DNA from: a virus
DNA: 64,000 bases
Virus record (IMG/VR): IMGVR_UViG_3300018080_000104
Coordinates: 1 to 64,000 of that record
Strand: one strand, 5' to 3'
Notes under the pieces: generated by a model
What the model was told of the DNA's origin: nothing
The model's input: only the letters and a program-made list of their open reading frames with translations
Database searches by the model: none
Position numbers and translations under genes: made by a program
In this document: piece by piece, positions 16,343-63,195 of the stretch
How the letters are laid out: each line of letters begins with the position of its first letter
Position numbering within the stretch: position 1 is the first letter of the stretch

Positions 16343-16408
16343 ACTCGTATCAACCTCCCTTTGTTTGAGTTGCAGAAATCCCGCTGTTTTTGCAAAACAG
16401 CTATCTAG

Positions 16409-16481
16409 CACCGCCCGCGGGAGTCGAACCCGCCTTGGCCGGATTGAAAGCCGGCTGCATTCCCACGATTGCTAGAGCGGT
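16409..16481 (-). tRNA. tRNA with 8-nt anticodon loop (UUC or UCA in the loop)
   Basis: A full cloverleaf can be drawn. The acceptor is ACCGCTC/GGGCGGT (one G-U pair). The D arm is GCA/TGC with a 10-nt loop containing GGG. The anticodon stem is GCCGG/CCGGC around CTTTCAAT. The variable loop is CAAG, and the T arm is GCGGG-TTCGACT-CCCGC. The discriminator is G and CCA is not encoded (CTA follows). The anticodon loop has eight nucleotides rather than seven, so the anticodon is ambiguous: UUC (Glu) in the usual register, or UCA one base later. It lies six nt after the stop of the 111-aa gene and is probably co-transcribed with it. Confidence 0.75.
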
Positions 16482-20887: not shown

Positions 20888-21664
20888 ATGGACAAACCGT
20901 TTACTACATTCCGTGAAATTGGTCACAGAGGACGGCTCGGCAACCAGCTGTTCGAAATTGCCGGCACCATAGGCATTGCCGTAAAACACGGATTTGACTA
21001 TTTCTTTCCGCCGTGGAAGCCCGGCCGCCGGTTTATACACGAGCTGCCAACACGGCCGATGCGGGAACTCCGGCGCATCCCAACATACCCACCTGCGAGA
21101 TGGATGAAAGAGCCCTACGACATCCACATAGAAGGCACGACGAATTTCGCAGCGCACTTCGAGTCAATCGACTGGTTCAGACACTGCCAGGATCTTATTC
21201 GCTGGCAGTTCGAGCCACAGCCTACCGCCATACAGCTGTTGCAAATGCGATATGCCGCGGCTCTAGCAGCCGATCCGTGCGCTTTGCACATTCGCCGCGG
21301 TGATACTACACGGATTTCCCACCGATACAAACTCTGGACTACGGGCTACTACGATCGCGCTATGGCGCATTTTCCGGATTCAATATTCTTGCTGTTGTCC
21401 GATGACATGCCGTGGGTTCGCAAACACTTCAAGGGGCCACAATTTATATACGTGGACAAACAGCCGCCATACATGGATTTGTTTTTGATGACGCTGTGCA
21501 GGAAACACATCATTTCTAATTCGACGTTTAGCTGGTGGGGCGCCTGGCTGGCCAACGACAGCCGCGTTGTTTACCCTTTACCCTGGAATGCCCGCAGGCC
21601 GTATCCGATTGGATTGTTTCCTGACCATTGGAAAGAAGTCGACAGCTTGCGGATCAATAGCTAA
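20888..21664 (+). CDS. Alpha-1,2-fucosyltransferase, GT11 family
   Basis: The only clear plus-strand gene. The GT11 motifs are visible in order: RGRLGNQLFEIAG near residue 15 (GG/GN-Q-x-F motif I), LHIRRGDT near residue 134 (H-x-R-R-G-D motif), and IISNSTFSWWGAWLA near residue 210 (NSTFSWW motif). These enzymes transfer L-fucose from GDP-fucose to a galactose in O-antigens and related glycans. Length (258 aa) is near the lower end for the family. No strong RBS precedes the ATG. The opposite direction, own regulatory region and glycan function suggest separate acquisition. It abuts the tandem sulfotransferases. Confidence 0.88.
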   Translation: MDKPFTTFREIGHRGRLGNQLFEIAGTIGIAVKHGFDYFFPPWKPGRRFIHELPTRPMRELRRIPTYPPARWMKEPYDIHIEGTTNFAAHFESIDWFRHCQDLIRWQFEPQPTAIQLLQMRYAAALAADPCALHIRRGDTTRISHRYKLWTTGYYDRAMAHFPDSIFLLLSDDMPWVRKHFKGPQFIYVDKQPPYMDLFLMTLCRKHIISNSTFSWWGAWLANDSRVVYPLPWNARRPYPIGLFPDHWKEVDSLRINS

Positions 21665-25035: not shown

Positions 25036-26088
25036 TTAGCTGAGTACAGATTCCCACGTCTGCTGGAATTGTTGTTTTCGAACTGCAAGTCCTTCTTTTG
25101 TTGCCTGTTTCATTTTCCACAAAGTGCGCGGATTTTGCAATAGTGACAGCAGTGCTTCTATCAAAAGGGCGTAATTGCCGACAGCATTGGGCATTCCCAG
25201 CCAATTGCTCTCGAGATCACACGGCAGAAGCAAGCTGTTCCGTTTGTGCCTCAAATACTCATTTTGTGGGGGTATATCCCAGGCCAATACAGGAACACCC
25301 ATACACAGCGAAGTTAGCCCTATCAATGCCAGGCTTTCATAGTGTGCTGCCCAACACGTTAAACAGCTGGTATTGTACAAGCTAAGCCGCTGCATCGCTG
25401 TTGGCCGTTCGACACAGATAAACTGATCGGGATGCGTTTTGCACAATTGCCGCAAACGTCGTATCGCCCACAGCGACCAGCCTGTGCCGCTAGCAATGGT
25501 AAACCTTGCGCGCTCCTCAGTTTCTACAATTGACTCTAGCGCGTCGAACAACAACCGCTGATTCCGTTTAGCCTGGGAATCATACAGAGGCACAAAAATG
25601 TCGATCTTATCGCAGATTATTCGGCTATTCGTGCCAAACGGTATTGGCACGTCCCACGGCGCAATGCGCGCACGAAACGCTGATCCCGTTCCGCCGCATG
25701 CCCGGCACACCGCTTCACCTGCACAGGCATAAGGAAATACAACCGTATCAAACTTGGCAATAACTTCCTTGTGCATGGGTGCCAACTTTTCCCACACTGC
25801 AAGCAAAATAGTTTGAATGCCGCGGTTGGCTGCCCATGCCAACTCGGCCATGCTCGGCGGATGTGTCCACACGATGTGCGAACAGCGAGATGCCCATTGC
25901 TTGAATGGCGTTTTTCGTTCAGCGACTACGCGCTGATCCCAATATGGCGATATCTCTTTTTTACAGATATCTCGCGCCAGTATGGTCGGCCGCAACCCTA
26001 GCTGCTGTGCTAGTTCGGCAATATGGATACTTGCCCAAGTGATTTCGTCCGAGAACCATCGCGTTACCAAGCCCAGCTGGTCGGACAT
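25036..26088 (-). CDS. GT-B type glycosyltransferase (350 aa)
   Basis: The ATG at 26088 follows GGGAATAAC; the frame extends to 26163 inside the portal gene. The protein has a two-domain GT-B layout. The N-terminal half has Rossmann-like strands (LGLRPTILARDI; CSHIVWTHPPSMAEL). The C-terminal half has a glycosyltransferase-1-like nucleotide-sugar region (ARFTIASGTGWSLWAI; LTSLCMGVPVLAWDIPPQN). The MGVPVLAWD segment resembles the donor-binding 'G.PV.a' motif. Sugar and acceptor unknown. It may glycosylate virion or host surface. A Cys pair (CRACGG) near residue 130 is unusual for the family. Confidence 0.72.
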   Translation of the reverse strand: MSDQLGLVTRWFSDEITWASIHIAELAQQLGLRPTILARDICKKEISPYWDQRVVAERKTPFKQWASRCSHIVWTHPPSMAELAWAANRGIQTILLAVWEKLAPMHKEVIAKFDTVVFPYACAGEAVCRACGGTGSAFRARIAPWDVPIPFGTNSRIICDKIDIFVPLYDSQAKRNQRLLFDALESIVETEERARFTIASGTGWSLWAIRRLRQLCKTHPDQFICVERPTAMQRLSLYNTSCLTCWAAHYESLALIGLTSLCMGVPVLAWDIPPQNEYLRHKRNSLLLPCDLESNWLGMPNAVGNYALLIEALLSLLQNPRTLWKMKQATKEGLAVRKQQFQQTWESVLS

Positions 26089-26116
26089 AGTTATTCCCGC
26101 GCCGTAAAGATTTCTA

Positions 26117-28090
26117 CTACACCGGCGGCGCTGCCATGCTTCGCTGCTGTGATTGCTGCGCAATTTGTCGCTGCATAACCAAGCCCTGCTGCTTTGCCTG
26201 GTTATCCAGCGCCTCTAGCGCAGATTTGACTGTCGCGTGCAATACCGGATGTCTGGTTTTCAGCTTTCGCAGGCTGCTAATCCGCTGCGATGGTGGCATG
26301 CCAAATATCTGCTGCGCTAACGTGTTTGCCATTTCATACAGCTCTTGCGGCGTAATGGATTCCAAGTCGGATACCGGCAACTGCGCCAGCATAGCATCGA
26401 CGGGATCCACAGGCGTTCCAGGCACATCGCCTGGCGGTACGCCGGCTGCTGACGGCGCGCCTCCGGAAGCGGCAGGTTCCGCGACTGCCTGCGCACCGCC
26501 AGCAACCCCATCCGCCGCAGGTGCTCCCGCAGGAGCACCACCCCCAGGCCCAGCGATTTGCCCAGAGGCCATCATGTTTCCTAATCCAGCAGCTTCTAGC
26601 TCCTGCTGCACTTCTTGTGAACGTTCGGCGACATACTTCTGCTCGTCGAACAGTCTGTCCTGCTCTTCGTTGAATTTCAGCCCGACGCTCTTCAACCCGG
26701 TAGTCTGGCTGATTTGCTGCCCCATCATGAGTTGCAACTTAGCCAGCTGCCGATTGAGATCATCGGCATGGGCCGGGCGCTCCAGCCGGGCAGTAACTTC
26801 GTCCCATGCGAGCGCAGCGCTGATCTTATTAACGATCCATTGCAGTAGTTTATTGAGCATGTAAGCCAAATGACTCCAGCTGGACTCCAATAAACGTAAC
26901 GCCGTGGGCGCTGCCTGCAACGTAAGCGACCCCTTGTAGAATTCGACTGGAATGTTGATTGAATTGAGCAGCGTATCTACGCCCTGATCCATCAGCTGGT
27001 ATGGCGCCATTTGGCTGGCTTCGGCGCCTAGCGCTTGATAACGCACAGGGAAAGGCAACGTAAACCACGAAGTCGGGTCTATCCGCCGCCTGGCAAGCAG
27101 AGCATTCAACATGCCAGTAACGCCGCCCATGTCTGCAGAAAACAAAGGATCGCCCATCATACCGTTCTGTCCGCCGGAGCCGCTACGGGGTTCCGGTGTA
27201 ATTACACGGAACGGGATGACATAATCGAGTGCAATGGCCTCATTGAAACGATGCAGTACCTGCACATACCAGGCTTGACGGAAATTCGTGAGCACTCGGC
27301 TAATCCCCCATCCTCTATTCAGCACGCCGCAAAGTGTATCCTCTTTAGCGTGGTAAATGATGTCGGGATTAAACAGAATGTGTTTGTTCTGTTGCACTGC
27401 CTGCACCACTTCCCACGGCGCCCGGCTGAGTATGTGTAGATTGCCGCGGTTGATGAAATCCTTGTAGTACTGGGGAATGCGCCACACGTGTGCCGTTGCT
27501 TCCGAGTACGGATCCCAGATCAATTCCAATTCATGGATGTTCCAGCGCTTTACGGTTATGTCGTCCTCTTCCGCCGTCCGCCTGTCGACGTGCGTCCACT
27601 TTCCAGTATATCCGCATGTTAGACATGTTGCGCGAAACTCGCCGCCCGTCCATTTGAAATTGAATCGGCTGTTCGTGGCCATTCTGTTCATAGGCACTTC
27701 AAAGCCGCATTTCGGACAAGACAAATGTCTCCGAAACGGAATTACTACTGACGCGACATGATTGCCGTAGCAACAATAATCGAGCGCCGCGAGCTTAAGC
27801 ACCGACATGATGCCTAATTTGTTGTGCAGGTAATCAAGATATAATTCCTTGCCAGCACGATCCGTGCCGTCGATTTCTATTTCGGTCAAAAAGTATGCAA
27901 TGATTCGTTCGATGGCGGAACGATATACTCCGTTGTTCAGGAGTATATATTCGCAGAATTTGAGCGCGTGCGTAAACGTCGCCGGCATCGCAAGCGATGC
28001 ATAATCTGCAAATGGATCAGGAAATGGCTGGACTCCCCGCTGCGACGTCATAGTCGTCGACTGCGTGAAGTTTGACAGGAGGAAGGTCAT
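26117..28090 (-). CDS. Portal protein (657 aa) with zinc-ribbon insertion
   Basis: Length and layout fit a portal. An N-terminal clip/wing with alpha/beta segments is followed by a long helical part (ALRLLESSWSHLAYMLNKLLQWIVNKI, the crown/stem helices). QLMDQGVDTLLNSINIPVEFYKGSL recalls the portal region before the tunnel loop. A four-Cys insertion (C125-x2-C128 and C156-x2-C159) looks like a zinc ribbon, unusual for portals. The last 150 residues are Ala/Gly/Pro-rich. CAAGGACGG precedes the ATG. The portal forms the dodecameric DNA-entry ring. The call is by motif and layout only; no homology search was done. Confidence 0.68.
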   Translation of the reverse strand: MTFLLSNFTQSTTMTSQRGVQPFPDPFADYASLAMPATFTHALKFCEYILLNNGVYRSAIERIIAYFLTEIEIDGTDRAGKELYLDYLHNKLGIMSVLKLAALDYCCYGNHVASVVIPFRRHLSCPKCGFEVPMNRMATNSRFNFKWTGGEFRATCLTCGYTGKWTHVDRRTAEEDDITVKRWNIHELELIWDPYSEATAHVWRIPQYYKDFINRGNLHILSRAPWEVVQAVQQNKHILFNPDIIYHAKEDTLCGVLNRGWGISRVLTNFRQAWYVQVLHRFNEAIALDYVIPFRVITPEPRSGSGGQNGMMGDPLFSADMGGVTGMLNALLARRRIDPTSWFTLPFPVRYQALGAEASQMAPYQLMDQGVDTLLNSINIPVEFYKGSLTLQAAPTALRLLESSWSHLAYMLNKLLQWIVNKISAALAWDEVTARLERPAHADDLNRQLAKLQLMMGQQISQTTGLKSVGLKFNEEQDRLFDEQKYVAERSQEVQQELEAAGLGNMMASGQIAGPGGGAPAGAPAADGVAGGAQAVAEPAASGGAPSAAGVPPGDVPGTPVDPVDAMLAQLPVSDLESITPQELYEMANTLAQQIFGMPPSQRISSLRKLKTRHPVLHATVKSALEALDNQAKQQGLVMQRQIAQQSQQRSMAAPPV

Positions 28091-37688: not shown

Positions 37689-38423
37689 TCATGTATTTGG
37701 CGAATATGTACGGCGATAGTCGCTGCCGCACCTAGCCGTCTTGCCCGAAGCTCCTCGCCGTTTGGCTTTCGAACACTGGCCTTTATCGTTGGCGTTGATA
37801 GCTACGCCCTTTTGCCAGCTCCGTATACGATATCCTTGTTGATGGCACAATGCTCCAAGCATAACATCTCCGCCGTCGTGTTGCAACTCTTGGATAGGCC
37901 AAGCGTGTTTTTTGAGGATTTCTGTCCGTATAGTCCACCAGCCGCCAGTAATAAACTTGATAGTGCCCGGTACAGCCAGCCCTGAATACCACGGCTGATC
38001 TTCTACGAAGTGCCGCTGATGCACCGTCATATGCGGCCACAAATAAAGGGCTCCAAGCATATCTGTGCCGGACATCGCGCTGAAAATCTTGGCAAAAAAA
38101 CCACCATCGTCGCTGTCTGGCAAAAGCCAGCTATCATCGTCAAACCACATTGTATACGGTGACTCAATCTGTATTTTGTGGAACAGCTGCCGCATCATTG
38201 GATATTTGTAATAGGGCGGCGATCCTGTCATAATTGTCATGGGCATCCTTGCGGAATACCTGTTTACCGCGTCTAATGTGGCTTGAGATACAGCATTCAA
38301 GCCCAGCCGCAAATCGAAATAGCCCCATCTTTCTTGATCGTGCAGCGATCGCAATAGCCGTTCAGCCAGTTTAGGATAGTCTCCAAACAGAAGACAACAA
38401 ACTGTGAACGGCTTTGCGATCAT
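37689..38423 (-). CDS. GT-A type glycosyltransferase (GT2-like)
   Basis: The N-terminus has VCCLLFGDYPKLAERLL (donor-domain start). MWFDDDSWLLP carries the metal-binding Asp cluster (DxD-like). TIKFITGGWWTIRTEIL and a downstream Asp/Gly region look like the acceptor side of GT2-type enzymes. It would transfer a sugar to an unknown acceptor. ATGA overlap links it to the preceding 90-aa gene. It joins a GT-B enzyme, a fucosyltransferase and two sulfotransferases elsewhere in the window. Confidence 0.7.
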   Translation of the reverse strand: MIAKPFTVCCLLFGDYPKLAERLLRSLHDQERWGYFDLRLGLNAVSQATLDAVNRYSARMPMTIMTGSPPYYKYPMMRQLFHKIQIESPYTMWFDDDSWLLPDSDDGGFFAKIFSAMSGTDMLGALYLWPHMTVHQRHFVEDQPWYSGLAVPGTIKFITGGWWTIRTEILKKHAWPIQELQHDGGDVMLGALCHQQGYRIRSWQKGVAINANDKGQCSKAKRRGASGKTARCGSDYRRTYSPNT

Positions 38424-50564: not shown

Positions 50565-51280
50565 TTTAGTTCCCTCTCCGATTTTTCCAAAGTTGTGCCA
50601 AGCGCTTGCGCCGCCTCGTCCAGCAGTGCGTGCGGTATTTTTCCCGTCCAATTATCTGCATATCCGACCAGATCGCCCAGCAGTTGCTGCAGGGCAGCGT
50701 CGTGGAATATGGCTGCCAAGTCGTAATGTCCGTTATGCATTGCAACGCAATAACGAAATAGCGGCGACATTCCAAGCAACACATTAGACAATACGCGATA
50801 TCTCGCATCCTCTACGGAAATCGTCGGCGATGCTCGCCTGGTAATAGCGACATTGACGTTTAGCTCTGTCGCCTCGCTTTTCCATTCCGCTTTCTGCAAG
50901 CTCCGCGCATCAGCAATGTTTTTCTCATACTCATCCAGCGCTCTTTGCGCAACGATCTGCGCCGGCTGCATTGTACGCCCTCGTCGAAATTGCTGACTGA
51001 TATAGCCTTCCGGATCTGTAATGCCGTACGCTGTAATTTTCGCAGCCAGCTTTTGCCACAATCTTTGTCTGTCTTCAGTGTACGGCGGGATATGCTCCGC
51101 CGGAGTTTGCCATGCGCGATATAAGTTTTGCAGCGCACGGTAATATGCACGGAACAGCCGCTCTGCAAAACTAGCAATCATGCGCTGCCTGGCATCCGTA
51201 GTCCCGTCATCGATCATGACGGGCCGCTCGTCTGCTATTTCAGGAGGAGGCTGTTGTTGTTTGTATGAAGCCGCTGTCAT
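50561..51280 (-). CDS. Helical protein of unknown function next to helicase (239 aa)
   Basis: ATGA couplings on both sides (51277-51280 and 50561-50564) place it between the SF2 helicase and the DnaB-like gene. It is almost all helical (ERLFRAYYRALQNLYRAW; MLAA-type and KSERELK). It could be a helicase loader, which often sits here in phage operons; this is inference from position. No motif supports it. Confidence 0.6.
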   Translation of the reverse strand: MTAASYKQQQPPPEIADERPVMIDDGTTDARQRMIASFAERLFRAYYRALQNLYRAWQTPAEHIPPYTEDRQRLWQKLAAKITAYGITDPEGYISQQFRRGRTMQPAQIVAQRALDEYEKNIADARSLQKAEWKSEATELNVNVAITRRASPTISVEDARYRVLSNVLLGMSPLFRYCVAMHNGHYDLAAIFHDAALQQLLGDLVGYADNWTGKIPHALLDEAAQALGTTLEKSERELK

Positions 51281-52803
51281 GTTACACCGATCCGGCTGCG
51301 CCGTATCGTCCACAAAGAGCCGTCGGGATTGTATTGTACCCATCCGTTAGCGTTGTATGCCCTTCGTCTGCTCATCGCATATCCTTTGAATTGTCCGTCG
51401 AATGCATCGTCGCAATCTATGACAACGCCGCATTGTTTGCCAGTCGCTTCATCTGTACGACAAACACGGCCGGGCGCCTGTATGTTGGCGGTTTCACTGG
51501 CGCCGCCGTTGGCACGAACGAGTACCTGTAACGAATCGAACGATACACCTGTCGCCCACACGCCTGTCGCTATAGCGCCGAGAAATTCTCTATTTTCAAA
51601 TCCGCGACGCAGTTGATCCCTTCGCGTTGCCGTCATTGACTCGTCTGCGCCTAGCAATCCGGCATCTACAAATGTGTTGCGGCGTTCGGGCGAAAGTGCT
51701 TGTTCGGCATAGCACAGTTGAAAATTGGGCAAGTGTTGCCGCAAGAACAGCGCATGCTCTAGCGTATCTACGAGAACCAGTGTCTGCATGTTGTTCTGCA
51801 CAAACGTGTCTGCTGCACTTGCGATTACCTGATTGCGATAATCGTGCCGCCAAATGCCGTGCCGCTTGCGTGCTACGCGCTGCCGCAGCAATCTGCACGG
51901 ATTCCATCCTGGATTTACAGACAACCACTGCACAATGATAGGCACAACGATGCCAAGTTGCTCTGCCTGTACGTATGGCAGTTTGAATATAGTTGGCCCA
52001 AAAATCCCATCCATACGATGATATGCATTGTCGAACCGCGTTTCTTTGCTGGCGGTGAACCCATACATCCGAGCATCCCAATATCGGCTCAACCATTCTG
52101 CATATCGATCCGTCATAAGCTCGTGAACTTCGTCCGCCAGCACAATGTCCGCAGCAAAATCCGAATGCCGAAGGCTGTCGGCCGTATATATGGTGATGCG
52201 CCGTTTGTGCTTCTTGCCACCGCCCACTTGTCCGATGTCAGGAAGCCATCGCGACATGTGTCGTCGAATGGTCGCCACCACGCTTTTCGATTTGGTGACA
52301 ATGTCAATCTTTGCTCGCGGATACAGAGCGCCCAGCATTCCGAACATATAGCTCTTGCCGAACGCCGGAACAGCTTCGATGATGCCTCCGTCGTGCATAT
52401 CGATTTGGGCCAGGCACGTCTCCTGCATCGGTCGGAGTTCGAATGCAGTAAATATGCGATCCCAATCTGCCGCATAAACCTCCGGCTTTGGCGGATTGTA
52501 ATCGACGTATTGCACAGAGTAGCCGGCCTGCCGCAGAATAGCGGCCAGCGTAGGTCGCCAGCCTTTCTGACAGCACAGGCAACCACTGCTAGAAAATTGA
52601 TAGAGTCGTCGCTCTTCGCACTGTACCGTTTCTCGCAGCCCGCATACCGGATCGTAGCGATTGGCCGCCTCTCGATCGAACAAGTGCGTATAGATGAGCG
52701 GCTTTGTGAGTTTCCGGACAATCTCCCCCGCAAGGGGATGCTGTCCATCTGCGGATACCTCTATTAGGGCATTCCGGCGGCTAATTACAGCCAATTTTTC
52801 CAT
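51277..52803 (-). CDS. SF2 helicase (DEAD/H-type)
   Basis: The ATG at 52803 directly follows a terminator; the frame is open to 52872 through that hairpin, so I prefer the shorter form. Motif I is degenerate but recognisable (EAVPAFGKS, 143-151); DEVHELM is motif II (224-230), and YGFTASKETR is motif III-like. TGVWATGVSFDS and NIQAPGRVCRTDE are motifs V and VI. A Cys cluster (CLCCQKG) lies at 75-80. The enzyme may help recombination or replication restart. No good RBS. Confidence 0.76.
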   Translation of the reverse strand: MEKLAVISRRNALIEVSADGQHPLAGEIVRKLTKPLIYTHLFDREAANRYDPVCGLRETVQCEERRLYQFSSSGCLCCQKGWRPTLAAILRQAGYSVQYVDYNPPKPEVYAADWDRIFTAFELRPMQETCLAQIDMHDGGIIEAVPAFGKSYMFGMLGALYPRAKIDIVTKSKSVVATIRRHMSRWLPDIGQVGGGKKHKRRITIYTADSLRHSDFAADIVLADEVHELMTDRYAEWLSRYWDARMYGFTASKETRFDNAYHRMDGIFGPTIFKLPYVQAEQLGIVVPIIVQWLSVNPGWNPCRLLRQRVARKRHGIWRHDYRNQVIASAADTFVQNNMQTLVLVDTLEHALFLRQHLPNFQLCYAEQALSPERRNTFVDAGLLGADESMTATRRDQLRRGFENREFLGAIATGVWATGVSFDSLQVLVRANGGASETANIQAPGRVCRTDEATGKQCGVVIDCDDAFDGQFKGYAMSRRRAYNANGWVQYNPDGSLWTIRRSRIGVT

Positions 52804-52852
52804 AAAAAACCCCAGCTTGTCGGTATTTGCAGTATTGACCGACCGCGCTGGG
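52804..52852 (-). terminator. Intrinsic terminator directly before the SF2 helicase start
   Basis: CCCAGC/GCTGGG and GGTCGGT/ACCGAC stems with a 13-nt loop are followed by six Ts and then ATG. It ends the transcript of the 147-aa gene, so the helicase would need readthrough or another promoter. Confidence 0.75.
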
Positions 52853-52916
52853 AATGCTATCATCAATAGCATCGAGCCAACGATGACCGCTATCCCCTAG
52901 CCGGTTATGTTACAAC

Positions 52917-54540: not shown

Positions 54541-56724
54541 TTACGTTGCCAGATCTATCACTGCATCAAAATACTGGCCGAGCTGCGAAGCTCGATGTGT
54601 AACAAACAATATCTGCAAACCGCGCTCCTGCGAGATCGCTCGCAGCCGTTCCAAAGCAATCGGTAAACAGCCCAGGTTGTGCTCATCCAGCCCTGCTGCC
54701 GGCTCGTCCATCATGAGTATACCTAGATTATTGGCAAAAGTTGAATTCATTGCTATACGAAATGCTAAAGCCAGCGTTACCCGCTCCCCCACCGACAGCC
54801 AGCTATCCGGCACAGTCCGACTACCATCAAGGAAATTCGCCTGAAATCCTAAGGCATCATTGGCGGCTACCCTAAACGGACTATCGAATAGCCCCAGCGT
54901 TTCGTTGATTTGCTGCTCCATGTGTTGCAAGTATGTGTACGACAGTATTCGCGGTGCTTCATTGACATGGAACACGTTTCGAACATCTGTCATGAACTCC
55001 TTAGCCGCAGTACGCCGTCCAGCTGTTAAAAGCGTAGCCGTTGCCGAGTCCAGCCTGGCTTTCGCCTCGGCCGCCATGACTTCGGCACGGATTACGGCAT
55101 CCGCCCAATCCTGCTTCGTGCGTCGCCGCAAACGCATAGTCTCGATTTCGCGCTGTGCCGTTGCAGCCGCGGCTGCTGTCGCATGCTCGGAGGCAGTTAG
55201 CTGCGCCGCAATGTCAGCAATCGTCGTTGTTACGCTCTCTACATGGCTTTCGCACCGCGTTCGCTGCTCGCGGATTTTTGCTAGTCGGTCTGCAGTCTGC
55301 TGCTTGCCTTTATGATACCCTTCCAGTTCGGCAATAATGGCATTCGCATCGTTCTTTGTCGTTGCCGGCGATGCAACATGCACTAGACTATCTCGCGTAC
55401 GCTTCAGCCTGCGAATAGTTTCCAGCAAGCTTGTACGGTAATTATCCGAACGCAATTTTGCTTGCGTATACTTTTCAAGCAAGTCCAATTGTCTTGCTTT
55501 TTCTGCCGACTCTGCCTGCGCATCGTGTAACTGTGATTGCTTTTCTGCCAGCAATGCAACGCGTGCATCGAAATCTGGCATTCGCTGGCCGCACGTGGGG
55601 CAGTTTTCGTTGGCAGCTTCCCGGCTAAGTATCAGCACCGTTTCTGCTAGTACGCTGGTTTTTGCATTCGCTGCTTGTGTAGCCTGGATCAATTCCGCCT
55701 TTATAGCATCATCGTCTACAGCAGCGCAGACAACCGGATCAGAGGGCTTGGTAGGTTTTGCTCGATCCCGCCAGAGCCGCATTGCGCAGTTTTGCTCTGT
55801 TTGCCACTCCGCACGCGCAGCTCGCGAATGCTCGTGCACTGCCCAGTCTGTCAGTGTTTGCCTAGCGGCCTCGACTAGCGGCAATACAGAATTTATACCC
55901 TGGTCAAGTGTAGCAACATCATCAGCTAGCTTCGCGAGAACCTCATCGTGTTCTTGCAGCTCCGCTGTCGCTTCTTCCAGCTCCATCTGCAACGATTGTC
56001 GCCTTGCAGCCAACTGTTTATTGCTCTGATAGGCATCGATTATCCGCTGGCGGTCAGAGATATAATCTGTTATGTCGTCGGGCACGTCCACATAATTGCA
56101 GCTCTCGGCCTGTAGTGCCTCCAACTGCGATTGTTGCTTCTTATAGTCACTTGCTCTTGTCGTGAGTGGCACTGCAAGCGACGGAATCACTATTTCTGTG
56201 ACCGCCTCACCGAGCTCTTTCCAGATCTTTTGCGCCTTATCAATGCCAAACAGAATGGCCAATTCTTGTGCCCGTTCAGTTTCTGTTTTGTCGATCAACG
56301 CGTCAATTTGGCGCTGGTTGACAAATATGTAATCGTCCAGCTGCTTCTTGGTAATACTCAGGGCTGCCCACAATTCCTTATTGATTTTGCCGGTACCGCG
56401 TATTGCGCTCGATTCATCGCCGTGCTGTATTACCATTTCTGCCGTCGCCGGCCGCAACATGCGCCGAATCCGGTAGAGCACACCAGCATGCCGCAGCCGC
56501 AGCAAAACACCTGCTTTTTCGCCATGGCCCGCCAGCTGCCGGATATTTTCCAGCTTCCTCTGCTCGCCACCGGCTTCGCCGGTCATCGCAAAACGTATCG
56601 CCGCAAGAAAGTTCGTCTTCCCGCTGCCGTTCGGTCCGACAATCATATTCAAGTACGGACTAAATGCTGCTTCACGTTGGCGGTGTTGTCGGAAGTTGGT
56701 CAGCGTCACAGTCTCCAGGTTCAT
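54541..56724 (-). CDS. SbcC/Rad50-like (gp46-type) recombination ATPase
   Basis: AGGAGCAAATGC precedes the ATG. Walker A is GPNGSGKTN (30-38). Then come coiled coils with a zinc-hook CPTC (ANENCPTCGQ). The signature is LSVGERVTLALAF, Walker B is LGILMMDEPAAGLD and the H-loop FVTHRAS. With the SbcD-like partner it processes DNA ends for recombination and replication restart. It overlaps that partner's gene by about 50 nt. Confidence 0.88.
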   Translation of the reverse strand: MNLETVTLTNFRQHRQREAAFSPYLNMIVGPNGSGKTNFLAAIRFAMTGEAGGEQRKLENIRQLAGHGEKAGVLLRLRHAGVLYRIRRMLRPATAEMVIQHGDESSAIRGTGKINKELWAALSITKKQLDDYIFVNQRQIDALIDKTETERAQELAILFGIDKAQKIWKELGEAVTEIVIPSLAVPLTTRASDYKKQQSQLEALQAESCNYVDVPDDITDYISDRQRIIDAYQSNKQLAARRQSLQMELEEATAELQEHDEVLAKLADDVATLDQGINSVLPLVEAARQTLTDWAVHEHSRAARAEWQTEQNCAMRLWRDRAKPTKPSDPVVCAAVDDDAIKAELIQATQAANAKTSVLAETVLILSREAANENCPTCGQRMPDFDARVALLAEKQSQLHDAQAESAEKARQLDLLEKYTQAKLRSDNYRTSLLETIRRLKRTRDSLVHVASPATTKNDANAIIAELEGYHKGKQQTADRLAKIREQRTRCESHVESVTTTIADIAAQLTASEHATAAAAATAQREIETMRLRRRTKQDWADAVIRAEVMAAEAKARLDSATATLLTAGRRTAAKEFMTDVRNVFHVNEAPRILSYTYLQHMEQQINETLGLFDSPFRVAANDALGFQANFLDGSRTVPDSWLSVGERVTLALAFRIAMNSTFANNLGILMMDEPAAGLDEHNLGCLPIALERLRAISQERGLQILFVTHRASQLGQYFDAVIDLAT

Positions 56725-57820
56725 GCATTTGCTCCTGAATGATAGTATTTATTTCCTCACGCACATTCTGCGCGTTCCATAGACGAATAGCGGCATTGCA
56801 GACGTCAGCATTGTCGCCGTAACCCGTACGAATACAGCCGGGCATGCCCTGCTCAAACACAGCTTCGAGTCTCGCTTGTTCTGCCATAGTCTCCTGCGCT
56901 TGTCGCGGATTCTGTGGATCCCAGAATATATGCGCAGCGTCGCTGACAACGTCGGTAATCTGAGTACGAACGCCCGCTACTGCCGTCAAATAGTGGACAC
57001 GGATAATATTCTTGCGGATACTGTCCGGCACATGCGCTTGTGGCCGCTTTGCTTCGCTGACGTTCCAATCGGCGCAAAATTGCCGCAGCGCAGCTTCACT
57101 ATCAATGATATAATCAAACACTTGTCTGGGTCGCAGTGGCTCACTGGTAACTGTCATGTCATCGTTAAGAAGCCACACACCTGTAGCCGTCGATTCATCG
57201 ATTTTCTGCGGACAGAGCGGCCCCGGTGATAGTATGTAACGCGCTGCCGAATGCATCTGCCTGTGCGAATGGTAATCGCCAGTAAAAATCGTGCGTACGT
57301 GCGGCGCTACCCATTCAAACCAAGCATCGCCGCTATCAGCAGATAGGAAATCTTTCCACACTTGGTGTGTCGCCAATATCTGCGCCGTTCGTGGTACAGC
57401 TTCCAGTGCAGCGCGCACATCTTGCGGATGCCGATAATCCAAGCCATATATACTACAGCTACGATCGGGCAGTAGCTCTATAACCTGCTGATCGATCCAA
57501 ACCGGCCAGCCATGAATGGCAGCCAGCCACGGCGGTTCCGCCCGTTCATGTTGTCCTTGTACATAATAGACGGCAATATTCTGGTCCTGGAACCACTGCA
57601 TGGCTGCTCGCATTTGACTGACTGCGGCGGATTGTTGCAGTTGCTCATTGAAAACGTCACCGAGAAGTAGCAAATTTTCAACCTGGCATCGCGCGGCAAT
57701 CTGCTGCACTTGCTTAATGCCCCAAGCAATATCCCCTTCAAGCATAGGATGTCGAGGCCAAATTCGATCTTTCTTTCGGACATGCCAGTCGGCAGTCACT
57801 AACGCCACGGGCTTGCTCAA
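56672..57820 (-). CDS. SbcD/Mre11-like (gp47-type) nuclease
   Basis: TTG start at 57820 after CGGAGA. Metallophosphoesterase motifs: TADWHVRK (D-x-H), LGDVFN (GD), GQHERA (in place of GNHE), HQVW and GDYHSHRQ (G-x-H-x-H). The Asn of the GNHD/E motif is replaced by Gln. Partner of the SbcC-like ATPase. The enzyme would cut DNA ends or hairpins with Mn2+. The replaced residue could lower activity. Confidence 0.83.
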   Translation of the reverse strand: MSKPVALVTADWHVRKKDRIWPRHPMLEGDIAWGIKQVQQIAARCQVENLLLLGDVFNEQLQQSAAVSQMRAAMQWFQDQNIAVYYVQGQHERAEPPWLAAIHGWPVWIDQQVIELLPDRSCSIYGLDYRHPQDVRAALEAVPRTAQILATHQVWKDFLSADSGDAWFEWVAPHVRTIFTGDYHSHRQMHSAARYILSPGPLCPQKIDESTATGVWLLNDDMTVTSEPLRPRQVFDYIIDSEAALRQFCADWNVSEAKRPQAHVPDSIRKNIIRVHYLTAVAGVRTQITDVVSDAAHIFWDPQNPRQAQETMAEQARLEAVFEQGMPGCIRTGYGDNADVCNAAIRLWNAQNVREEINTIIQEQMHEPGDCDADQLPTTPPT

Positions 57821-58428: not shown

Positions 58429-58705
58429 GCAGCATGGCTTCTCGCATGTCCGCCGCTATCTGCCCTGCGCGTATCGGGCTACGACACGCAATAGATTGGG
58501 ATTGTCCACACTTGCAGCATTTTGCGGCTGCCGGCCAGTAGTCCAAAAGAAATTGGCTGTTACAACGAAATTGCCAGTGCCGGCCGCCGTCCAACAATGT
58601 TACTGTAATATTTTCAAAGACCATCGCCTCGGCAACGTGAGGATATAGCCGCATTGCTTCAAACATGCGCGCTCGTCGTTTTTGTCGTTCACGCTTGCTC
58701 CGCAT
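58364..58705 (-). CDS. Basic protein with Cys cluster (113 aa)
   Basis: AGAGG lies before the ATG; it overlaps the stop of the HldE-like gene by 17 nt. The N-terminus is Arg-rich (RSKRERQKRRARMFEAM). CCKCGQ near residue 64 and a later Cys may bind zinc. The rest is helical. Function unknown. Confidence 0.6.
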   Translation of the reverse strand: MRSKRERQKRRARMFEAMRLYPHVAEAMVFENITVTLLDGGRHWQFRCNSQFLLDYWPAAAKCCKCGQSQSIACRSPIRAGQIAADMREAMLLAIRRAFQETAVAVPTPAEQL

Positions 58706-60230
58706 CTCGCCGGATCCTCTCTATAATCTCGGTAGTACTTGTAACAGTTTGTGGGATAGCTACTGCACGACCCCCGTATGCTTGAACATACGACGCGCCG
58801 GGAACAGTAGATATCGTGTCTTGGTAATCGGCGCCCTTGAACAACACATGCGGCGAAATAGCACGAATCGCTTCTCTCGGAGTATCGTCGTCAAAAACGA
58901 CAATCATATCCACGCATCGTAGCGCTGAAAGCATGCGCACGCGCTGTCTGCAATCTATAATAGGCTGTCGCTTGATACTGCTTGCAGACTTGTCGCTGTT
59001 AAGCAGTACGATCAAGACATCGCACGCGGCGGCAGCGTTTTCTAGCAATTCAAGATGTCCAGCATGCAGTAAGTCAAACACGCCATTTGCTACGCCGACT
59101 CTCGCACCATATGCTCGCGCTGCCCGCGAAATCTCAACAGCCGTCTCTAGTTTTATTTCACGATGCTTATGGTAATGCGTAAGACATTGGCGATACATCG
59201 CATGCAAAGGCGGCGGCGCCGCCCCCGACATCCCAACAGCGATATCGGCATTTGCCAAAGCAAACGGTATTGCACCAGCAATATCAAAGACAATGGCGCC
59301 TTTACTGATCTTTTCAGAGTTTTCGATTATGCCGTATACAAGGCCGGCAACAATACTATCGCCCGCCCCACAAGTATCGACTGCTGCCGTGCCGCATGTC
59401 TTATACTTTGTTGGAAGCTGCGAACCTGCTTGTGCATATATTGCGCCTTTCGCTCCTAGTGTTGCCAGCAGACTACAACGAAATGTATTGGCAACCGTCA
59501 CAGCTATTTCAGGCAATGCCGCCGCTATGAACGCGCTGCAATTCATATCGCATACTGCGCTCGCAAATGCTTCCAACTCTTTTCTGTTTGGCGTCATGAC
59601 ACAGTTTACGCCAGAACGCAGCATATATGCTTCTGCGTTAGCGGGATGCGGATCGATCACGACCGGTATACTCTCAGATAGCGCATAAGCGAGTATTAAA
59701 TCAATTGACAATGGCGTAAGCACGCCTTTGCCGTAATCAGATAATACTATGAGCCGCGGCAATCCGCATTCGCGTATGAGCTCTTTTATGCCCGCAGTTG
59801 TCGGATATTCTTGTTTTGCGCTATCGCATCGTTGTCGTGCAAAAAGCCGGCCATGCTCATCCAACAATCGATACGTCCAATTCGTTGTAGCTTTGTCGTA
59901 ATCGTGGACGTGCGATACCAGCTGTGCGGGCTGCCGGGAGGCTAAATGCGCCAGCTCTTCTCTAAACATCTGCCCGTGTGCATCCTTGCCAACAAAACTT
60001 AGCAGCCGCGTCGGTATGCCTAACGCAGCAATACCTGCAGCGCAATTTGCTGCTGCGCCCACAGTAGCTTCTATTGGCCCGGCCTTATCAGCTAGTACGA
60101 CAGGCGACGTCTGGTCCGTAGCAGAAATACTGTGACGACAAGCCATATCGCAAATAACATCGCCGACAACCAATACGTATCCTTTATCGCGGATGGTGTT
60201 TCTTTCCATTTGCAAAATGCTCTGGGTCAT
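58689..60230 (-). CDS. Bifunctional HldE-like heptose kinase/adenylyltransferase
   Basis: ATG at 60230 follows AGGAGAC. The N-terminal PfkB-type kinase part has VVGDVICDMA, GAAANCAAGIAALG, LIVLSDYGKGVLT, VIDPHPANAEAY, CVMTPNRKELE and DTCGAGDS. The C-terminal nucleotidyltransferase part has NGVFDLLHAGHLELL (HxGH), VLLNSDKSASSIKR and LFKGADY. This is the HldE order. The usual product is ADP-D-glycero-beta-D-manno-heptose, an LPS-core precursor in Gram-negatives. Phage carriage is unusual; the role could be LPS change, virion glycosylation or signalling. Kinase substrate residues are not individually checked. Confidence 0.87.
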   Translation of the reverse strand: MTQSILQMERNTIRDKGYVLVVGDVICDMACRHSISATDQTSPVVLADKAGPIEATVGAAANCAAGIAALGIPTRLLSFVGKDAHGQMFREELAHLASRQPAQLVSHVHDYDKATTNWTYRLLDEHGRLFARQRCDSAKQEYPTTAGIKELIRECGLPRLIVLSDYGKGVLTPLSIDLILAYALSESIPVVIDPHPANAEAYMLRSGVNCVMTPNRKELEAFASAVCDMNCSAFIAAALPEIAVTVANTFRCSLLATLGAKGAIYAQAGSQLPTKYKTCGTAAVDTCGAGDSIVAGLVYGIIENSEKISKGAIVFDIAGAIPFALANADIAVGMSGAAPPPLHAMYRQCLTHYHKHREIKLETAVEISRAARAYGARVGVANGVFDLLHAGHLELLENAAAACDVLIVLLNSDKSASSIKRQPIIDCRQRVRMLSALRCVDMIVVFDDDTPREAIRAISPHVLFKGADYQDTISTVPGASYVQAYGGRAVAIPQTVTSTTEIIERIRRDAEQA

Positions 60231-61646: not shown

Positions 61647-62333
61647 TCATTGTCCTTTTATAGAATTAGTCGCCTCCTCGACGAGCCATATATTCACGTG
61701 AGTTTCGTCAGGATACACAAAATTGAATTCTGCAGCAATAGAATTACACGGCGCCAAAGACAATGGCGGCCACGTAGGATGCTGTTCAACAGCTGCGGCG
61801 GCCAGCGCCACATAGGCATCCACATAGCAATTATCAACACCGCGAACGATAGTTATTGCCGCCCAATCGCCGTTATCCAGCGGCAGCTTAAAGCCCAAAA
61901 GGATATCGTTAACAGTGCTACCTTCCGGCAATGTTCGCCCAGCCAGCAAGTCTTGCGCATATGCAAACAAATTCGCAGGCACGACGGCCCGCCAAGTATC
62001 AGCCTTACCTATCACTGGCTGCAAGGCTAATTCATGCAGCGTTTGCAAACTGGCGATAGCCAAATTATTGACGAAGAAGGCTCCCATATCCTGACAAGTA
62101 TCCGCTGGTGTTTCGACTACCGGCTCAGATGCCAAATACGTCTGCAAATTTCCAGATGCCACGCCGACACGCGACTGCTTTATGGCTAATTCAGAACAGA
62201 CCAGGCCGACAAAATTCCAGAATACAGCATGGTCGACGTTGTCTTCGACAAATGCTAGCAGAATTTCCAACTGCTGTTCCAGCGACAGTTTATTTGTTGC
62301 AGCTACGCTTTTGAATTCATCACTTAATGACAC
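61647..62333 (-). CDS. Protein of unknown function (228 aa)
   Basis: A GTG at 62333 follows GAGGAG. A helical acidic N-terminus is followed by a beta/alpha region (VNDILLGFKLPLDNGDWAAITIVRG; NCYVDAYVALAAAAVEQ). The end is a beta-type strand pair (EFNFVYPDETHVNIWLVEE). No motif. Overlaps the next gene by 14 nt. Confidence 0.6.
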   Translation of the reverse strand: MSLSDEFKSVAATNKLSLEQQLEILLAFVEDNVDHAVFWNFVGLVCSELAIKQSRVGVASGNLQTYLASEPVVETPADTCQDMGAFFVNNLAIASLQTLHELALQPVIGKADTWRAVVPANLFAYAQDLLAGRTLPEGSTVNDILLGFKLPLDNGDWAAITIVRGVDNCYVDAYVALAAAAVEQHPTWPPLSLAPCNSIAAEFNFVYPDETHVNIWLVEEATNSIKGQ

Positions 62334-63195
62334 AATCGGCGCTCCTCATTTTTCCAAACTGACTAAACAGGTGAACATTTCGCGTATAATTGAATAGCTG
62401 CGCAACTGCGTTGGCGTCGCCGGCCATCCATTGCCGCGGATATCGCATTGCCCATCCGGTCCATATTGCCAACCGTCTCGGTGGCATGCTTGTTGCAACG
62501 TTTACTACGGCCGGTTTTGGTGCTGTCCGCCAACTCTGCGGCACGACAGCTATGACAGACCGCCGTACTCGCCAATAGCCCACTATGCCCGTTGCCGCAA
62601 TCGGATAATACAAAAATGGCTCAAGCGAATACCACATGTATCCGAGATATACGTCGGTCAGATAGCGGCGTCGTACCTTTTTCGTCAGTGGCTGATGCCG
62701 TTTACGCAGCACGCAATCCATAGAATGCGAAGTGATACGCCCGGCACACATTTGTATGGCATCGTGCGTGGCATGCTTGTGCAGCATAGTAAACTGCACG
62801 ATCTTATATGGAATGCCTGCCTGCGTCAGCTTCCCTATACAATCTTGCAACGATGTATAGACTTGCTCTGCCCGCCTTGCATGACAATACGGACATATGC
62901 GACGCGTACACCGCTGTAGCGGAAAAGGCAATTTGATTGCACAGGGAGGACATCGCATTATGTATGCTAGTTTTGCTTCGTTCGCCAGCGATTCCATACC
63001 TGCCTCTTGGAGCTGCAATATTCGGCTATACCGCCAGCGTTTAATATGCGCCATGGCCTCGTCGCGGAGGGCCTTGCGCTTGACGTTGTAAGATAATACA
63101 GCCAAGGTCGACACGACGTCGACCAAGGCTGTATTAGATTTCGACCACGCCAATTTTGGCGCATCAGTTTTTTGCTGCGCCGTTTTCTTTTCCAT
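62320..63195 (-). CDS. Zinc-Cys protein of unknown function (291 aa)
   Basis: AAGG precedes the ATG. A Cys cluster lies at about residues 82-105 (RCPPCAIKLPF; RRICPYCHARRAEQVY). The following segment (KLTQAGIPYKIVQFTMLHKHA) has a strand like motif 1 of rolling-circle initiators, but I see no HUH pair or catalytic Tyr set. So a replication-initiator call is not supported. The end is basic/aromatic. Function unknown. Confidence 0.6.
   Translation of the reverse strand: MEKKTAQQKTDAPKLAWSKSNTALVDVVSTLAVLSYNVKRKALRDEAMAHIKRWRYSRILQLQEAGMESLANEAKLAYIMRCPPCAIKLPFPLQRCTRRICPYCHARRAEQVYTSLQDCIGKLTQAGIPYKIVQFTMLHKHATHDAIQMCAGRITSHSMDCVLRKRHQPLTKKVRRRYLTDVYLGYMWYSLEPFLYYPIAATGIVGYWRVRRSVIAVVPQSWRTAPKPAVVNVATSMPPRRLAIWTGWAMRYPRQWMAGDANAVAQLFNYTRNVHLFSQFGKMRSADCVIK

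Follow-up and report, generated by a model that had tools for sequence, protein, structure and literature searches.

The 64,000-nucleotide stretch of viral DNA analyzed here (the window) comprises bases 1-64000 of a 195,453-bp IMG/VR virus record, IMGVR_UViG_3300018080_000104, and carries on its minus strand an HldE-like gene for a bifunctional sugar-phosphate kinase/nucleotidyltransferase. By homology, the gene is real and specifies a divergent two-domain enzyme of the HldE type that probably activates heptose, and it is a core gene of a lineage of large phages, held at a fixed site, rather than stray cargo. In the explanation that we favor, and to which we give about an even chance, phage-made ADP-heptose feeds the phage's own GT9 heptosyltransferase, which most likely glycosylates a tail or other virion protein. 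The observations behind it are homology, the kinase-domain fold, an intact set of core catalytic motifs, an unchanging genomic site in the lineage, GT9 in every sufficiently long lineage genome and the lack of both genes in the two cultured relatives checked. The core position of the gene and an unusual sugar-binding region of the kinase go beyond a preliminary description of the window, which had proposed an HldE-like gene carried by a phage, with the complete bifunctional order and the motifs DTCGAGDS and HxGH. The gene and its main parts are as follows:

58689..60230, minus strand: HldE-like bifunctional sugar-phosphate kinase/nucleotidyltransferase (P0001), 513 amino acids, ATG at 60230, stop at 58689
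59211..60185, minus strand: PfkB/HldA-like kinase domain, residues ~16-340
58704..59132, minus strand: HldC-like adenylyltransferase domain, residues ~367-509 (TIGR02199, 1.1e-41; PDB 5x9q, 6.6e-24)
59358..59378, minus strand: kinase motif DTCGAGD, residues 285-291 (DTCGAGDS, 285-292), with D291 as the presumed catalytic base
59055..59066, minus strand: nucleotidyltransferase motif HAGH (HxGH), residues 389-392
60108..60116, minus strand: lineage signature DQT, residues 39-41, in the place of the near-invariant bacterial SPE

Upstream of the ATG lies AGGAGA, a Shine-Dalgarno-like sequence and plausible ribosome-binding site. In Pfam searches the 513-residue protein matched PfkB (7e-24) followed by CTP_transf_like (2e-17), which is the HldE domain order, and the NCBIfam HldE model NF008454 aligned protein residues 16-508 with model positions 10-473 of 475 (E=1.2e-61). 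Identity with E. coli HldE is 31-32%. The AlphaFold2 model (29 sequences) had a mean predicted local distance difference test score (pLDDT) of 89 and a predicted TM-score of 0.88, and its best PDB matches were Burkholderia cenocepacia HldA structures, with a target-normalised TM-score of ~0.8. As a reference for individual residues we used 80 bacterial HldEs, in which 87 positions are at least 95% conserved. The phage protein retains 64 of these 87, including D28, the SDYxKG motif, D285, G288, G290 and D291 of DTCGAGD, and N382, G383, F385, D386, H389, G391, H392, N411, D413, K420, R430 and K465-G466. D285, G288, G290 and D291 are invariant across all ten lineage HldEs, as are H389, G391 and H392; the GAGD of the kinase reads GCGD in two other lineage copies. 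This copy has GAGD with its catalytic aspartate as well as NGxFDxxHxGH, and the latter is kept in 10/10 copies. Both parts of the earlier proposal thus stand, and catalytic residues, the loss of which would have spoken against it, are present.

The record is viral by its terminase, tail sheath and baseplate homologues and a multisubunit-type RNA polymerase. In a first tree, the HldE-like protein grouped with three viral contigs (99% support), and those three share the surrounding genes. A scan with the helicase of this gene cluster returned 15 loci, all of one lineage, which comprises ten distinct large phages with ~200-kb genomes. The conserved surroundings of the gene in the window are:

56672..57820, minus strand: SbcD/Mre11-like gene, named by its position and motifs (without a match in Pfam or PHROGs), adjoining HldE in every lineage locus that extends to the site
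54541..56724, minus strand: SbcC/SMC-like ATPase (SMC_N, 6.5e-19), syntenic in the lineage
51277..52872, minus strand: DNA helicase of the conserved cluster (PHROG 16, 1.9e-30), the query that found the lineage
61647-62333 and 62320-63195, minus strand: two genes upstream of HldE whose place is kept in most of the lineage

Each of the 13 loci that reach the site has HldE immediately upstream of the SbcD-like and SbcC-like genes, and any open reading frames (ORFs) in between are small; these loci represent nine distinct phages besides this one, and the two remaining loci (L193 and L205) end before it. Identity to this phage across the lineage is 39-54% for the helicase and 24-34% for HldE, and the association is therefore old. 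Eight of the ten lineage HldEs form one clade with 100/100 support and those of L204 and L207 a separate pair. In the free tree the ten do not come together, but a single clade was not rejected (approximately unbiased test, p-AU 0.285), and a single acquisition of HldE by the lineage is therefore possible from the phylogeny, although not shown. Near-identical lineage copies have identical HldE genes, hence synonymous and nonsynonymous counts were impossible. A single-protein scan of viral contigs with the HldE-like protein gave no matches because the query is too divergent.

The preliminary description had suggested a search for linked heptosyltransferases. Such a gene was found at the level of the genome by Pfam scans of nearly all larger ORFs in the record. 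Outside the window, it shares a domain with a smaller gene inside it:

record 96631-98616: GT9 fusion, with a GT9 domain (Pfam PF01075, 42.2 bits; gathering score 22) and, after it, a second glycosyltransferase domain, which gave a weak GT2 match
37689..38423, minus strand: glycosyltransferase-like protein with homology to the fusion's second domain (28% identity, E=7e-25), with homologues kept in lineage records G002 and G003

GT9 is present in 6/6 lineage records of at least 100 kb, which stand for five distinct phages, since G002 and G047 are near-identical to judge by their loci. Two further records, of 74-83 kb, have it as well, and those that lack it are 44-86 kb fragments. In record G004 the GT9 gene is of a different, stand-alone type. 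The fusion shares 47-48% identity with its counterparts in G001 and G002, is syntenic among G000, G001 and G002, and stays beside homologues of the genes at record positions 94958 and 98820, close to the baseplate-J and tail sheath homologues. A PDB profile search with the fusion placed WaaF first (E=0.0009) and also returned WaaC (0.006); a single-sequence PDB search gave no meaningful chain, and no match was found in the cultured-phage collection. NCBIfam gave weak matches to RfaQ, to heptosyltransferases I, II and III and to the AAH/TibC O-heptosyltransferase. With Foldseek, the best match of the predicted structure was TibC (E=7e-9), followed by WaaF, a Veillonella GT9 protein and WaaC, a result to be read with care because the AlphaFold model is poor (pLDDT 52). 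Cysteines 262, 263, 268, 285 and 300 are invariant in six phage GT9 proteins; they lie at a location comparable to that of the TibC finger, with a spacing that is similar, not identical, to it.

The record appears to lack the rest of the ADP-heptose pathway. No GmhA-type gene (SIS_2) was found in any of 16 records and no GmhB-type gene (Histidinol-ppas) in any of 18; HldD was not found either, the only epimerase found in the record being GDP-mannose 3,5-epimerase-like. A complete set of GmhA, GmhB and HldD was thus not seen, and the host would therefore supply the other steps. By terminase and RNA polymerase searches, the nearest cultured relatives are Salmonella phage Arash, in which the portal and polymerase genes lie near each other, and Vibrio phages D69, D148 and D181 (26-32% identity). 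These relatives infect Salmonella and probably Vibrio, so that a Gram-negative host, without which the earlier proposal would have failed, is plausible, although this phage's own host may differ. Neither Arash nor D69 has a GT9 domain, nor an HldE beyond a partial nucleotidyltransferase-type match of 54 positions in Arash. No cultured phage matched the SbcC-like query. The agreement in presence and absence of HldE and GT9 between the lineage and these two phages is suggestive. In unrelated viruses the two do not regularly co-occur: among 40 HldE-bearing viral records searched, GT9 was over its cut-off in six, three of them from this lineage.

The mechanism we propose begins with host GmhA and GmhB, which would be needed for the earlier steps. 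Phage HldE would then make ADP-heptose, and the GT9 fusion would transfer the heptose to an acceptor, most likely a protein of the tail or of another part of the virion; the second glycosyltransferase domain of the fusion may then lengthen the glycan. That all lineage genomes of sufficient length carry GT9 suggests that these phages add sugar to a component of their own, most likely the particle itself, and the place of GT9 among the tail genes speaks for an acceptor on the virion. TibC is a protein O-heptosyltransferase that uses ADP-D,D-heptose (PMC4358343); this is the HldE product before HldD acts, and therefore no HldD would be needed. A more specific version, in which the lineage runs protein heptosylation, with core HldE supplying ADP-heptose and a TibC-like GT9 fusion O-heptosylating virion (tail) proteins, we hold only tentatively, as something closer to doubtful than to probable. 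Protein heptosylation is known from bacterial autotransporters, and no report of viral protein heptosylation was found in the literature searched. Among the three roles raised in the preliminary description, modification of the virion is accordingly the one we prefer, given the tail-region GT9 gene and TibC as its best structural match; re-coating of the host persists as a rival, and nothing was found for exploitation of signaling.

Several observations weigh against this explanation. The score with NF008454, 209 bits, is far below the equivalog cut-off of 521, and the single-domain NCBIfam models also fall short (142 against 181.5 and 111 against 345). Because neither the curated cut-off nor several sugar-proximal residues were matched, we call the gene HldE-like and not a curated HldE equivalog. 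The GT9 fusion lies ~36 kb from the HldE gene, its structural model is poor, as said above, and it scored 18.8 bits with the BAHT model TIGR04414, the cut-off of which is 200. The virion acceptor is a prediction. Finally, the comparison with HldE-less phages comprises two cultured relatives that differ in many other genes.

The main rival is that the GT9 fusion uses phage ADP-heptose to alter the lipopolysaccharide (LPS) core or another surface glycan of the host, for example to block superinfection or to keep phage from re-adsorbing to debris. We consider this somewhat unlikely. In its favor, the models for heptosyltransferases I, II and III and RfaQ fit the fusion as well as or better than TIGR04414, which also counts against a TibC-like function, and WaaF and WaaC are its PDB sequence matches. 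In addition, the sugar clusters of jumbo cyanophages, which include PfkB kinases and nucleotidyltransferases, have been taken to modify surfaces (PMC7824862), and a heptosyltransferase I was noted in a huge phage (PMC10747093). However, the cyanophage clusters are sporadic and polymorphic (PMC7824862), whereas HldE here occupies one fixed site in every lineage member, and the GT9 fusion sits in the tail gene region. No integrase family turned up in the general Pfam scans, which included no test aimed at a temperate lifestyle. The idea of a passive metabolic cargo gene that merely sustains the supply of host LPS precursor earns very little credence from us. HldE-like genes do occur on many unrelated viral contigs, and pelagimyophages have rfaE among their listed auxiliary genes (PMC7029224), but the fixed position and the retention, together with GT9, despite divergence to ~30% identity fit a dedicated phage function better.

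The enzyme itself may also have drifted, so that the kinase/nucleotidyltransferase pair activates another sugar phosphate for the phage glycan genes, which we regard as improbable. It is favored by the sugar-proximal residue set (SPE, GGxAN, TKxR and the RLKG loop), which is not preserved and thus also weighs against heptose as the substrate. D-[QR]-T is found in eight of ten lineage HldEs in place of SPE, positions that are 96-99% conserved in the 80 bacterial proteins, and a two-residue deletion abolishes the RLKG loop in the same eight. G59A (GG to GA) and D134R are private to this copy among the lineage, and K118W is shared in position with one other copy, which has N. The departures appear to concentrate in the sugar-facing region of the kinase, as judged from the family rather than from a ligand-bound structure, and in one loop of the transferase; the sugar specificity could thus have changed, and the true substrate may differ. 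The sub-threshold equivalog scores and the other sugar genes of the genome, such as the GDP-mannose 3,5-epimerase homologue, would be in line with such drift. Against it, the best match is always HldE/HldA and not another kinase or nucleotidyltransferase, the co-retained GT9 domain matches heptosyltransferases best, and the outer members L204 and L207 still have the usual loop and are SPE-like at the positions concerned. Hardly probable, in our estimate, is the use of ADP-heptose to glycosylate phage DNA against restriction. Glycosylated phage DNA is well known, and HldE lies within a replication/recombination cluster; such DNA is also discussed in PMC12619734. Yet Pfam scans of nearly all larger ORFs showed no thymidylate-synthase-like, dCMP-hydroxymethylase or other base-precursor family, and GT9 lies among tail genes.

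Virion glycosylation by phage-made heptose, our preferred explanation, can be set beside known systems. The phage protein resembles bacterial HldE (E. coli RfaE; Burkholderia HldA/HldC) in domain order, catalytic motifs, conserved residues and kinase fold, but differs in its ~30% identity, scores below the cut-offs, DQT for SPE, the deleted RLKG loop and the missing GmhA, GmhB and HldD partners. Viral HldE as such is already known. Other viral HldE/RfaE proteins, from the 595-kb phage LR756511 (which by eye has glycosyltransferase-like ORFs near its HldE), marine contigs and pelagimyophages (rfaE, PMC7029224), are likewise virus-coded kinase and adenylyltransferase pairs. They fall outside the eight-member lineage clade (100/100), however, and among the loci examined the fixed HldE-SbcD/SbcC-like synteny occurs only in this lineage. 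Cyanophages S-SSM7 and S-CAM1 (PMC7824862) share an HldC-like domain in a phage sugar-gene context; there only the adenylyltransferase domain was matched, and the clusters are described as sporadic, not as lineage core genes. With TibC/AAH the proposed logic would be shared, namely ADP-D,D-heptose and, with protein as its target, a GT9-like enzyme that has a cysteine finger. TibC has a four-cysteine iron finger after its catalytic domain, formed by cysteines 339, 342, 358 and 370 (PMC4358343), to be compared with the invariant 263, 268, 285 and 300 of the phage fusion. Unlike TibC, the fusion lacks a strong TIGR04414 match, includes an additional glycosyltransferase domain and would act on an acceptor that is predicted. 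Mycobacteriophages are an established example of glycosylated virions (cited in PMC12619734). Within the literature searched, it is new that the HldE-like gene holds a fixed core position, bears a diverged lineage signature and is retained together with the GT9 fusion.

Two database records were set aside as precedents. MT838225.1 ('Bacteriophage sp.', L009) was the only phage-labelled record that matched more than 80% of the protein, in a cluster of glycosyltransferase, HldE and epimerase, but its 5.5 kb resemble a bacterial LPS operon; AGRM01000002, although it stands in the phage collection, is a contig of a Salmonella chromosome.

A viral HldE is usually listed as an auxiliary metabolic gene acting on host LPS. 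Here it is a fixed lineage gene with a heptosyltransferase-type partner and, if the link between HldE and GT9 is true, the phage offers a specific example, open to experiment, of a virus producing activated heptose for a glycan of its own. ADP-heptose is a signal sensed by animal innate immunity through ALPK1, and for this reason the site of the phage heptose matters for sensing of the virion.

Further genes of the record relate to sugars or to the neighborhood of the GT9 fusion. The homologue of GDP-mannose 3,5-epimerase, an enzyme known chiefly from plants, lies at record 177958-178959 (L007:13958-14959, minus strand; best PDB match E=2.5e-73) and was not seen in G001, G002 or G003. More sugar genes occur at record positions 20888-21664, 25036-26163, 153465-154109, 180139-183153 and 192816-194400, of GT11, GT4-like, NodZ-like, exostosin GT47, putative rhamnosyltransferase and sulfotransferase-like types. 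Most are without a homologue in G001-G003, although the NodZ-like type is found in G001 and the GT4-like type in G002. The GT9 neighbor at record 98820-100526 is serine-rich, as is its homologue in G001 and, less so, that in G002; poly-serine tracts near the GT9 gene are a suggestion for glycan acceptors. The RRXRR domain occurs in IscB-type proteins, and an RRXRR-domain gene adjoins the GT9 fusion at record 95450-96379 (minus strand; Pfam RRXRR 3.8e-47, ORF assigned by eye); none was seen in G001 or G002. A Ro60/TROVE-domain protein is encoded at record 92138-93793 (minus strand; vWA_Ro60 2e-56 and TROVE 9e-25, ORF likewise assigned by eye) and has a homologue in G001.

The RNA polymerase at record 146805-151253 (L006:2805-7253, minus strand) has 1482 residues and aligns to bacterial rpoB and then rpoC, apparently as a fused beta-beta' chain, with homologues in Arash and Vibrio phage D69. 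By eye, the gene at record 170794-171555 (minus strand) is like the orotidine-phosphate-decarboxylase superfamily and stands beside a histidine-phosphatase family gene. The sole tRNA-like prediction in the window, at 16408-16481 on the minus strand, has the odd four-base anticodon ttca; it may be either a tRNA of the frameshift type or a spurious prediction.
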